Shown: piece after piece, positions 52,713-64,000 of the stretch | Layout: the number at the start of each line of letters is the position of its first letter | How positions within the stretch are numbered: the first letter of the stretch is position 1 | DNA from: Cyclobacteriaceae bacterium | GTDB lineage: Bacteria > Bacteroidota > Bacteroidia > Cytophagales > Cyclobacteriaceae | Assembly: GCA_027533395.1 (NCBI GenBank) | Contig: JAPZUF010000010.1 | Span: 248,001-312,000 of the forward strand | DNA length: 64,000 nt | Direction of reading: 5' to 3' | Notes under the pieces: model-generated | Told to the model about the DNA's origin: nothing | Databases searched by the model: none | The model's input: the letters and a program-made list of their open reading frames with translations, nothing else | Position numbers and translations under genes: made by a program

Positions 52713-54002
52713 TTAATTATTTAATCCGATTCTTAAATACTTATAAGTTCCATTTCCCACATTTTGAATATAGGATGATCCGTTTAAAATAGGACCATGG
52801 AGTGAAAGTAAATTATTCAGATTAGTATTTTCAAACATATAAACTAGATTTATTGGTTGACTGAGAATTTCACTATAGTTTAGACCTATATCATTAATTA
52901 TCTCATCATCTAAATTTGGTAATTGAATTGTTCTTGATCGATTTAAATCACCGATAAATTGAATTGTCCAAGAGCCAAAGTGAGCAGGAATGTCATCAGC
53001 ATTAAAATAAGTTAGTTCGAAGTAAACATTTTTAGCTTGGGATCTGCCACTGTAGGTTAGCCTCTTATTTTCAAATTTATAGTCAAGTAAAGTATAACTT
53101 GGCCTAGATAAATCAAATGGTTGTGTACCATCATAAACAAAAAGCGCTTCATTATCATTTTCTGCGTAAAAAGAAATGCCATAATTTTGGAAAATATTAC
53201 CAGGGGTGAAAAGATTAATACTTGTAGAATTAATTTCTTTTTGCGAAGTATAAACCGGATATCCCAAAACATCTATATAATTTTCAAAACCATATAAAGT
53301 ATATTCTCCACTTAATCCAGCAGGAGCTGATACTTGGCTATTACTAAAGTTGCTAAATGAAAGACCATCAACATCTATATTTATCGTTTCAATTCCATTA
53401 AATACTTCACTATTTAAATGATAACTAATCGGAATAGTACTTCCATTAGTGTTATTAAACTTTGTTAGTAAAACTTTTGAATTTTCAGAATAATTTATAT
53501 TCGAACTATTTTGCATAATAACTCTTTCAAGGCCTTTCATAGATAACCCAATGTTATTTATATCATTACCCGATTTATTGATTAAAGAGCTTTTGAATTG
53601 TGAGTTAAAATTTTCATAATCTCTTAAATTCATATCCAAAACAGTCCCCTTCTCTAGAAATCCAATGGTTAAATGTTCTCCATCTTGATCATCTAAAAGA
53701 CCCTCTGAAACCTTCAAGATTGTGAGGTGAAATGTGTTTTTTGTATAATCTGGGTTGGAGAGTTTAACTTCTGAAACAATTTCAGTTAAATCTTCTGAAT
53801 TAATCAAAAGTTTATCTAGAACATTCCCATTTTCATCTGATGCAATAAACCACATCCTTGTGGGTAATGGGTTGTATTGGATATTCTTAATCGTTATTAA
53901 GTCAGGGTTTGGAGGTTCGTTTTCGTCACAGGAAAAAAATATAAAAAAGGAAGAAGTGATTAATACAAAAGAGAGTTTAAGCTTTGAAATAATTTTTAGC
54001 AT
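52713..54002 (-). CDS. Lipoprotein of unknown function
   Basis: This 429-residue protein has a hydrophobic N-terminus (about 8-24) ending in FSC at 23-25, a plausible lipoprotein cleavage site. It is followed directly by an acidic CDENEPPN segment of the kind that can act as a surface-export signal for Bacteroidota lipoproteins. The rest is rich in asparagine, serine and aromatic residues with short predicted strands. I recognise no domain. It is AT-rich even for this window and is flanked by a terminator and a 278-bp non-coding stretch, so it may be a lineage-specific or transferred gene. Confidence 0.55.
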   Translation of the reverse strand: MLKIISKLKLSFVLITSSFFIFFSCDENEPPNPDLITIKNIQYNPLPTRMWFIASDENGNVLDKLLINSEDLTEIVSEVKLSNPDYTKNTFHLTILKVSEGLLDDQDGEHLTIGFLEKGTVLDMNLRDYENFNSQFKSSLINKSGNDINNIGLSMKGLERVIMQNSSNINYSENSKVLLTKFNNTNGSTIPISYHLNSEVFNGIETINIDVDGLSFSNFSNSQVSAPAGLSGEYTLYGFENYIDVLGYPVYTSQKEINSTSINLFTPGNIFQNYGISFYAENDNEALFVYDGTQPFDLSRPSYTLLDYKFENKRLTYSGRSQAKNVYFELTYFNADDIPAHFGSWTIQFIGDLNRSRTIQLPNLDDEIINDIGLNYSEILSQPINLVYMFENTNLNNLLSLHGPILNGSSYIQNVGNGTYKYLRIGLNN

Positions 54003-57904: not shown

Positions 57905-58579
57905 TTAGTTTAAGAAATATTGAAGGTTAAGTTCGCCTTCTTGAAGTTGCTGCACAGGATTTTGTCGTAATGAAATAATGCGTTCTCTTTCTGCCTTGGG
58001 TGTAGTATGTAAAGTTTGCGTGTTTAACTCTACAACTGTGGAGCGGTAACGCTCATCAGGGTAGAAAAACGAACCATTTTCTCCGATTACATCTACGGCA
58101 ATAAAGCCATACTTCGACATGATAGGCTTCGTATGCTGGTGAGGGAATCCAAAAATATAGTTGATGCCCAATTGAGTAGATATACTCACACCAGCCCGAA
58201 GTAAAATACCTGGAAGTCCTTTACCGGCATAGCCTTCCTTTACCCACCAACCACAGCCTTCGGCTAAACCCAATGGCTTCAAAGTATCTACTAAGTCGCA
58301 AAACTCAGATGAGATTTCTGTTAATGCTTGAGCCATCGGAATATGTTTTTGGTCGGTTTCACGATCAAGACGCATACCTGCCACCATTTCTTTGGTTTCG
58401 GCATCGAATGCTACAAACATGTAGGTGTTAGGGTCGCTCTGCCAGGCCTGCTGGGCAGACGTTACACCTTTTACACCAAACAACCGCAAGACTTCTTGTT
58501 GCTCGCGAGCAAATTGTGCTGCTGCAATAGGATGTTCTATTGCTCGCAACATTCTGATTTCAAATTGATTTTTGTTCAT
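57905..58579 (-). CDS. Acyltransferase-like (possibly GNAT-fold) protein of unknown function
   Basis: This 224-residue cytoplasmic protein is not firmly recognised. The middle part has strand-like NTYMFVAFDAETKEMVAGMRLDRET near 51-75, followed by a helix and a CGWWVKEGYAGKGLPGILLRAGV stretch near 110-132. The latter resembles the acetyl-CoA-binding segment of GNAT N-acetyltransferases (Q/RxxGxG/A-like). A FGFPHQHTKPIMSKYGF segment follows near 143-159. The role may be acylation of an amine, but this is tentative. It is encoded alone. Confidence 0.45.
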   Translation of the reverse strand: MNKNQFEIRMLRAIEHPIAAAQFAREQQEVLRLFGVKGVTSAQQAWQSDPNTYMFVAFDAETKEMVAGMRLDRETDQKHIPMAQALTEISSEFCDLVDTLKPLGLAEGCGWWVKEGYAGKGLPGILLRAGVSISTQLGINYIFGFPHQHTKPIMSKYGFIAVDVIGENGSFFYPDERYRSTVVELNTQTLHTTPKAERERIISLRQNPVQQLQEGELNLQYFLN

Positions 58580-62232: not shown

Positions 62233-64000
62233 TTAATCGTACCAAATACCAATTTCTCGTTTATCGTATCTGGGTTTCCTTGTTTTCTCTTTAATGTTGT
62301 CTGGCTGGGTTTGGTTCTTTCTGAACCATTTAGCCCATAATAATTTAATATTGGTAAAAAGGTTTCTTTCTTCCTTTACATTATTCTTGTTTGTTTTTAC
62401 AAAATAGAAATCAGGGTGGTAATTGGGTTTTCTTAAAAACTCAAACTTCTTCATTTTAATATTACCCTGGTAACTGCTTGCTTTTGCAAAAGCTTTTCCA
62501 GGTTCGCGTACGCGTAAGGCAGCACTGGCTGCTGATGGATTTTTTCTGTATGAATAGGCCTTTACTTTTCCATAAATGCTACCAGTCGCAAATACGCTTG
62601 TGCTAGGGTCTCGTTTCATTAATGCATCTTCATGAGCATTTTTATTCCTAGCCCAGCCGGGTTGTTTTAATCTTGTTGTTAATCCGCCAACTTTCAACGT
62701 TGAACCTATAGGTTTTCTCTTTAACAAAGCTAATTCAGCAGCATTTTTATTGCGTTTATAGCCTGGTGTTTGTAAACGTATTTGTAAACCATCAACAGCA
62801 AAAACACTTGTACTAGGATCTCGCTTTAATAATGCTTTTTCATGAGCATTCTGATTACGCGCCCAACCTGGTTGCTTCAAGCGAACGGGCATTCCGTTGG
62901 TAACGAAGTAATTTTGCTTCTCTCTTTTAACTATTGCATTTTCGTTTTGATATTTAACTTTACCGTATTTCCCTCTTCTTAAAAATCCTGTAAACTCCTC
63001 GCCTTGATTACTCATGCTGGGGTGAAGCTCAAATTTTTTAAAACTTCCCTGATACCTTCCTGCTTTTGCTGCTTCTTCAGGTGGTGTTCGTACAGGAATA
63101 GGAGCGTTATTGTTGTTCCATAATTTCCCACTAACACTTCCTCCTCCTTTGATTGGTTTTTTGCTTTTTAAGTACCCAGAGTAATTAACATTTTTACCTC
63201 CTATGCCTGGAGCGCGAGGACTAATCGGTTGGTTGTTGTTGTTCCATAAATTCCCGCTTACACTTCCACCTCCTTTTACAGGTTTTTTGCTTTTAATAAA
63301 TCCTGAGTAGTTAACATTTTTACCTCCAATGCCAGGAGCACGTGGACTTATAGGTTGGAAGTTATTGTTTCTCATTTGATTTGAAATGCTACCTCCACCT
63401 TTCAACGGTTTTTTGGCTTTTGTAAAGCCAGTAAAATTTTCTCCCTGATTACTCATGGAAGGTTTTAGCTCGAATAACTTGAAACTCCCGGGATAGGCTG
63501 ATGCTTTTGCAGAGATACCAGGCGATCTACCCACTACAGGTTGACCATTATTATTCCACAATTTGCCGCTAATACTACCTCCACCTTTGAGTGGTCTTCG
63601 CGTTTTTATATTGCCGGCAAAGTTTATCCCTTTGCTACCGATGCCTGGACTACGGGGAGATATAGGTTGACCACCATTATTCCATTTACCACTTCGGCTT
63701 CCTCCTCCGCTAATGGGTTTAGTTGCTTTTAAATTTCCAGAAAAATTTTCTCCCTGATTATTTAAACCAGGTTTCAATTGAAATTTTCTAAAACTTCCAG
63801 GATAGGCAGATGCTTTAGCAGATATTCCAGGCGATCTGCTAATGATAGGTTGGCCGCTATTATTCCATAATTTTCCACTTACACTTCCGCCTCCTTTTAA
63901 TGGTCTTCTCGCTTTTAAGATTCCAGAATAATTAGCACCTCTACTTCCTATTCCTGGACCGCGAGCAGTTATAGGTCTGCCAGCGTTGTTCCATTGGCCA
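62233..64000 (-). CDS. Basic tandem-repeat protein of unknown function (5'-partial)
   Basis: The frame is open to the right edge, so the N-terminus is missing; about 588 residues are visible. The visible N-terminal two thirds consist of alternating units. One is a 42-residue unit (GxxxxNYSGxxKxxKPxKGG, then GSxSGxLWNNxxQPIxxRxPGI). The other is a longer unit of about 62 residues starting AKASAYPGSF and containing NQGENFTG. Then come three copies of a second type (PVRLKQPGWARNxNAHEKAL plus a KRDPSTSVFA end), and a basic non-repeated tail ending GIWYD. It is rich in K, R, G and N, with no cysteines seen. No family is recognised. It could be a beta-solenoid or a matrix-binding surface protein. 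Confidence 0.8.
   Translation of the reverse strand, partial: GQWNNAGRPITARGPGIGSRGANYSGILKARRPLKGGGSVSGKLWNNSGQPIISRSPGISAKASAYPGSFRKFQLKPGLNNQGENFSGNLKATKPISGGGSRSGKWNNGGQPISPRSPGIGSKGINFAGNIKTRRPLKGGGSISGKLWNNNGQPVVGRSPGISAKASAYPGSFKLFELKPSMSNQGENFTGFTKAKKPLKGGGSISNQMRNNNFQPISPRAPGIGGKNVNYSGFIKSKKPVKGGGSVSGNLWNNNNQPISPRAPGIGGKNVNYSGYLKSKKPIKGGGSVSGKLWNNNNAPIPVRTPPEEAAKAGRYQGSFKKFELHPSMSNQGEEFTGFLRRGKYGKVKYQNENAIVKREKQNYFVTNGMPVRLKQPGWARNQNAHEKALLKRDPSTSVFAVDGLQIRLQTPGYKRNKNAAELALLKRKPIGSTLKVGGLTTRLKQPGWARNKNAHEDALMKRDPSTSVFATGSIYGKVKAYSYRKNPSAASAALRVREPGKAFAKASSYQGNIKMKKFEFLRKPNYHPDFYFVKTNKNNVKEERNLFTNIKLLWAKWFRKNQTQPDNIKEKTRKPRYDKREIGIWYD

Follow-up and report, generated by a model that had tools for sequence, protein, structure and literature searches.

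A long basic repeat protein family of Cytophagales, its gene neighbourhood and a possible role at the cell envelope

What does a long, strongly basic and internally repeated protein do for a bacterium of the Cyclobacteriaceae, and which of its properties are held constant among its relatives? The window, by which we mean the whole stretch of 64,000 nucleotides that was analysed (G000:C24:248001-312000), breaks off on its right within the gene for such a protein, and the right-hand flank (L003) was examined together with it. A first-pass annotation, made from the letters of the window, had described a basic protein with alternating 42- and about 62-residue units, a second repeat block and a lysine-rich tail, had recognised no family in it, and had offered a beta-solenoid, an extracellular fibre or a basic polymer-binding protein as possible readings.

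The gene and its repeats

The open frame lies on the minus strand and runs from the right edge of the window to 62233, encoding 588 aa inside the window (stop included), with its repeats in frame, which confirms the long, strongly basic, repeat-bearing frame first described. A further 435 residues are encoded in the flank, and the whole gene occupies C24:310233-313304 (window 62233 to 65304), about 1,023 codons, with TTG as its start codon and a frame that stays open for 6 codons further upstream. The whole protein has a pI of about 11.3 and ends in ..KPRYDKREIGIWYD. The proposed check for a signal peptide or lipobox, carried out by eye and by hydropathy, gave a Sec-type signal peptide on a hydrophobic N-terminal stretch (cleavage after ..VKAQ, before N) and no lipobox, the mature protein containing no cysteine. 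The parts of the gene within the window are as follows.

62233..64000, minus strand: window part of the repeat-protein gene, 588 of about 1,023 aa
63931..64000, minus strand: repeat unit 1, 41 aa (FTGNLK...), cut by the window edge (full unit 63931-64053)
63805..63930, minus strand: repeat unit 2, 42 aa
63745..63804, minus strand: 20-aa arm YPGSFRKFQLKPGLNNQGEN
63622..63744, minus strand: 41-aa repeat unit
63496..63621, minus strand: 42-aa repeat unit
63436..63495, minus strand: 20-aa arm YPGSFKLFELKPSMSNQGEN
63055..63435, minus strand: three armless units of 42, 42 and 43 aa (63310-63435, 63184-63309, 63055-63183), the region of the TRF call
62884..63054, minus strand: third arm YQGSFKKFELHPSMSNQGEE, merging into a linker
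62578..62883, minus strand: second repeat block (LKQPGWARN / KRDPSTSVFA)
62236..62499, minus strand: C-terminal block (YQGNIK...HPD...KPRYDKREIGIWYD), inside the region of the family profile
62314..62373, minus strand: segment EERNLFTNIKLLWAKWFRKN, the only long helix of the structure model (model residues 545-559, block pLDDT 57-65)

The array thus reads (41+42+20) twice, then 42, 42 and 43, and then a 20-residue arm that merges into the linker, with the LKQPGWARN/KRDPSTSVFA block and finally the C-terminal block behind it; TRF reports a period of 126 in 2.1 copies (score 360) at 63106-63369. What had been called a 62-residue unit is a 42-residue unit plus a 20-residue arm (YPGSF...NQGEN), and the alternation of the two holds for part of the array but is lost in its last three units. 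The second repeat block and the basic C-terminal tail were both recovered as described.

The first-pass annotation had further read the neighbouring units as almost identical, pointing to recent expansion or gene conversion. This is borne out only partly, and the array is not freshly expanded: its best 40-residue repeat pair is 90% identical in protein and 83% in DNA, but whole 42-residue units, to which the unit-to-unit values are confined, share only 43-76% pairwise identity, with pS of 0.62-0.99. Since 37% of the shared synonymous codons in that same best pair differ, against 59% expected for random codons, the copies are kept alike by protein-level selection more than by recency, with gene conversion among them a possibility. 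Fresh copies do occur in some relatives (synonymous difference of 0.03 in L085, L123 and L131). Over 81 family genes (our own and those of 80 loci), the top 40-residue self-match reaches 90% identity or more in 51, and most top self-matches are offset by 41-43 or 57-63 residues. Homologues with other repeat counts, which the earlier description had suggested looking for, exist within the same genus, where Chryseotalea sanaruensis (L083) has four near-identical units and one diverged fifth. In its family protein, four adjacent repeats (residues 466-633) are 90-98% identical while their synonymous sites have diverged (pS 0.56-0.78); polyubiquitin arrays likewise combine near-identical protein repeats with strongly diverged synonymous sites.

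Comparison of the gene with its relative in L079 gave pS of 0.73-0.93 throughout, while pN rose from 0.11 at the C-terminus through 0.19 (second block) and 0.20 (repeats) to 0.27 in the N-terminal part. Low pN beside high pS is typical of a gene that is translated and under constraint, and here the C-terminus is the most constrained region.

Fold, known families and distribution

No convincing match to the protein was found in Pfam, NCBIfam or the sequences of the PDB (best E 0.62 in the last), and the absence of a known family therefore holds for these three collections; nor is the family named in the titles and opening parts of abstracts returned by a literature search that took in PMC12635249. 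The sole Pfam profile match of the window protein is Bactofilin (PF04519), at E 0.1 and 13.3 bits against a cut-off of 27.9. L186, a repetitive relative, matched four unrelated Pfam families, two of them above their cut-offs (PF25498 at E 5e-6 and PF05357, Phage_Coat_A, at E 1.1e-4); no single stretch of either match passed alone, and so these were taken as matches of composition. A type IX sorting domain was found neither in the window protein (type A or B, Pfam, up to E 10) nor in the whole protein and 7 relatives (Pfam and NCBIfam, up to E 10), while the same Pfam library does detect Por_Secre_tail in the PorU of the same contig.

AF2, run on an alignment of 35 sequences, gave a mean pLDDT of 47 and a pTM of 0.20. 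Here, the 42-residue units carry almost only two-residue bridges, recurring at WNNNNQPI, and the one longer helix falls in the C-terminal block. This is a single model from a shallow alignment, of a kind that can miss real folds in repeats; it argues for a disordered protein and not a solenoid, and with no regular coil of strands and no Foldseek match to the model, the beta-solenoid or beta-helix reading lacks support.

Composition and charge were computed for 95 family sequences, namely our own, those of the 80 loci and those of 14 further genomes (13 of them in other families), several of which are cut by contig ends and in all of which the mature part was set by a simple hydropathy rule. 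The mature proteins have pI values of 9.7-11.8, with 18-34% lysine plus arginine and 4-16% aspartate plus glutamate, and a charge-hydropathy plot predicts every one of the 95 to be disordered. A clear hydrophobic N-terminal stretch is present in 83, and 6 of the 12 exceptions are cut by a contig end; cysteine is absent from 93; lengths range from 232 to 1,123 aa, some of them likewise truncated. The motif [YFW]-x-G exceeds its frequency in shuffled sequences (z>2) in 75 of the 95 and is not enriched at that level in the other 20. Because at least two members, L187 and L212, have none at all, and given those 20, the motif is not essential.

When the whole protein served as query, 20 of 59 near genomes, its own included, gave a match (19 of 58 others). 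Profile A1, built on the C-terminal block of 20 sequences with our own among them, finds that block in our protein at E 3.0e-40, a value that includes this self-membership, and matches 79 of 341 sampled Cytophagales genomes, exactly once in each. These matches span 14 of the 22 sampled families of the order, two of which (f14 and f19) contribute one weak match each and a third (f15) weak matches. The other 262 genomes have no copy recognisable with A1, so that the function must be dispensable, otherwise served, or carried there by copies too diverged to detect. In class-wide samples, A1 and the broader profile A6 alike found the family in 4 of 247 genomes, all 4 in our protein's own family. 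Within our samples of order and class, the repeat family is confined to one order. Among the named carriers are Chryseolinea serpens, Ohtaekwangia koreensis, species of Fulvivirga and Cesiribacter, and several labelled simply as Cytophagales or Cyclobacteriaceae, and on these names rests the assignment to Cytophagales. Two metagenome-assembled genomes labelled Chitinophaga and Bacteroides (L105 and L106), perhaps misnamed, contain members 58-59% identical to the query block, as in the Chryseolinea group.

What is kept across the family is an export signal, extreme basicity, an expandable body that is usually rich in [YF]-x-G, and the C-terminal block HPS...KPRYDK.E..IW, in which P50, E103 and W107 are the invariant positions of A6. 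The repeats had been expected to stay in frame among homologues. In distant members their sequences differ, the units of L180 being RxKKxK..IANYxGDI-like, and it is the charge, export signal and C-terminus that persist.

Neighbouring genes

In many relatives the repeat gene occupies a slot in a common gene order: E1 dehydrogenase, a small basic lipoprotein in some, the repeat protein, BrxC, an OsmC-like gene, an 8-strand barrel and lipA. Clustering of 20 stretches (our own and 19 relatives, 3.6-20 kb) placed E1 in 15 of them, BrxC in 12, lipA in 11 and, in 14, an exported protein of about 245 aa that carried no annotation; the identities of E1 and BrxC, as of hemerythrin, PorU and PorV below, are Pfam matches, while those of lipA and the OsmC-like gene come from inspection of their sequences, followed by tracing with BLAST. 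In the source genome the repeat gene is found outside this block, with BrxC, the OsmC-like gene and the barrel together on another contig (C34), and has moved away from it; E1 is still in the stretch beside the repeat gene in three of four congeners. Its flanking genes here are a histidine kinase and a hemerythrin-domain gene. The gene for PorV lies about 5.6 kb away, and the PorU-PorV neighbourhood was set aside as coincidence, neither gene having a relative in the 19 other stretches compared. Elsewhere in the window, the frames 57905-58579 and 52713-54002 (both minus strand, 224 and 429 aa) have no Pfam match at E 0.001.

The unannotated exported protein was modelled as an 8-strand barrel with a pLDDT of 87, and Foldseek returned 12 matches at E<=0.001 (E 6.5e-6 to 8.5e-4), of the OmpX/Ail/OmpA/OmpW type; the two members scanned have no Pfam match above cut-off. 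The barrel gene is present in 72 of 80 family-carrying loci, five of the eight misses being the window's closest relatives (L079-L083). Among the matches listed, 27 of 39 genomes have it no more than 3.1 kb from the repeat gene, a comparison that omits the 12 weakest family matches and scores contig breaks as misses, and that becomes 27 of 44 when five of those 12, whose listed barrel is elsewhere (G067, G104, G159, G176 and G196), are added. The barrel family itself (L048; G000:C34:53244-53960; profile A2) is found in 306 of 341 genomes of the order at E<=1e-10, mostly as a single copy and mostly without the repeat protein, and is therefore not a dedicated partner. The idea of such a partner was weakened on this ground, the barrel being retained where the repeat family was not seen. 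No clear carrier-specific surface emerged when 76 carrier barrels were set against 15 of non-carriers (counts before length filtering). Likewise, six genomes of our protein's own family that gave no match (L159-L164) retain lipA and the barrel with no basic frame adjacent to them, and a diverged copy elsewhere in these genomes is possible.

In distant families, a small lipoprotein with a basic tail (mostly C..CP...GL..KK, about 85-127 aa) often sits directly upstream of the repeat gene, between it and E1. Its profile, made from 8 sequences of 8 of the 28 carriers outside our protein's own family, matched 24 of those 28 (16 of 20 when the profile suppliers are left out) against 5 of 28 non-carriers. 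Of the 24 matches, five are not on the contig of the repeat gene and several are weak. Three of the four missed carriers have a small lipoprotein-like frame in the same slot. Within our own family the profile matched none of 24 genomes, 12 carriers and 12 non-carriers. Four loci of family f13, which are negative with the repeat-family profile, have in the slot between E1 and BrxC an exported basic protein of 104-119 aa; judged by gene position, these are probable reduced relatives of the repeat protein. Examples of both kinds of small protein are listed here.

L180:10149-10412, L177:4785-5084, L210:4790-5173 and others: small basic lipoprotein
L168:5384-5698, L169:6689-7048, L170:6705-7055, L202:5919-6269: short exported basic proteins

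Function and comparison with known systems

We consider it about an even call that the repeat protein is an exported, envelope-anchored and disordered polycation that binds anionic envelope polymers, and of the three readings first offered, that of a basic polymer-binding protein would be the best fit; an extracellular fibre may be possible too, though the search for a type IX sorting domain gave nothing that would point to it. After Sec export, the C-terminal block would retain the protein at the envelope, perhaps through its W/K-rich helix and the KPRYDK.E..IW motif, by way of the membrane or a protein partner. The long basic body may then bind and cross-link anionic polymers, whether LPS phosphate, peptidoglycan or exopolysaccharide, by many weak and interchangeable cationic and aromatic contacts. 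Contacts of this kind would explain how the sequence and number of the repeats can vary freely as long as charge and anchor are kept, and an anchored polycation fits what is seen, namely an export signal, charge and C-terminal block that are kept while a disordered body turns over. Equally, the body could act outside the cell.

It is unlikely, though worth weighing, that the protein is instead a surface adhesive or matrix protein, which would pass the outer membrane along an unrecognised pathway and attach cells to surfaces or to slime with its basic repeats rich in Tyr, Trp, Gly and Asn. Its composition and the turnover of its repeats suit such a role, as does the presence of Chryseolinea, Fulvivirga and Ohtaekwangia, which are gliders, among the carriers; mussel foot proteins, too, use basic repeats for surface adhesion. 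Yet with neither a type IX sorting domain nor a lipobox the protein has no known Bacteroidota surface route, and GldB was found in all 80 genomes examined, 40 with and 40 without a family match (above cut-off in 62), and so gave no link to gliding. No gliding association was found with GldJ either, a model unable to discriminate, with matches in 334 of 341 genomes and none above cut-off. We hold it to be similarly doubtful that the protein acts as a periplasmic tether or spacer together with the 8-strand barrel and the small lipoprotein, linking the outer membrane with peptidoglycan or envelope machinery. The confident barrel model, the frequency and closeness of its gene at the loci, and the enrichment of the lipoprotein in carriers outside our own family point that way; against it, the block also carries E1, BrxC, the OsmC-like gene and lipA, so that the linkage may be mere synteny, the barrel persists where the repeat family was not seen, the two genes lie on different contigs in the source genome, and the lipoprotein is missing from all 24 own-family genomes.

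An exported binder of nucleic acid, serving an extracellular DNA matrix or DNA uptake, would share the net positive charge and disorder, but we think it improbable: no DNA-binding family was matched, a weak point in that the neighbouring genes are only partly annotated. Least probable by far is a precursor cleaved at many basic sites into cationic peptides. The repeated units do carry dibasic sites, yet between distant relatives conservation lies in the C-terminus and not in the repeats.

Were the anchored-polycation reading true, this would be an orthologous single-copy bacterial gene in which length and repeat sequence are free while net charge, export and the C-terminal block are kept, and the family would let one ask, in a clean natural experiment, what share of the function of a disordered envelope protein is due to charge pattern alone. 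The short version in L180, 316 aa long and in the common gene order, makes that question open to a deletion test; we take its genome to be that of Cytophaga hutchinsonii, a genetically tractable species. A wider and rather less probable proposal is that Cytophagales have an undescribed envelope polyelectrolyte module, in which the adjacent small basic lipoprotein and the disordered repeat protein (whose size in that slot ranges between about 100 and about 1,100 residues), beside an order-wide 8-strand barrel, would set the mechanics of envelope or surface by charge alone, with their sequences free to drift.

How the repeat protein stands to known systems can be stated case by case. The bactofilin match lies below its cut-off, and bactofilins are cytoplasmic beta-helices, while the repeat protein models as disordered. 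With type IX cargo it has in common its Bacteroidota origin, a signal peptide, a long repetitive exported chain and, in many relatives, an outer-membrane barrel gene nearby; unlike such cargo, it lacks a sorting domain (Por_Secre_tail or type B CTD), and its own C-terminal block is a different, basic motif. The likeness to OmpX, Ail, OmpA and OmpW concerns the linked barrel only, at 8-12% identity, with no Pfam family assigned to the two barrels scanned, and these two likewise gave no Pfam PorP match, which sets them apart from PorP/SprF-like barrels, as does the commonness of the barrel family without the repeat protein. The resemblance to mussel foot proteins and other secreted polycationic repeat adhesives lies in a basic, repeated and disordered chain rich in Tyr, Gly, Asn and Trp, and homology is not claimed; the repeat protein differs from them in being prokaryotic and in carrying a conserved C-terminal block.
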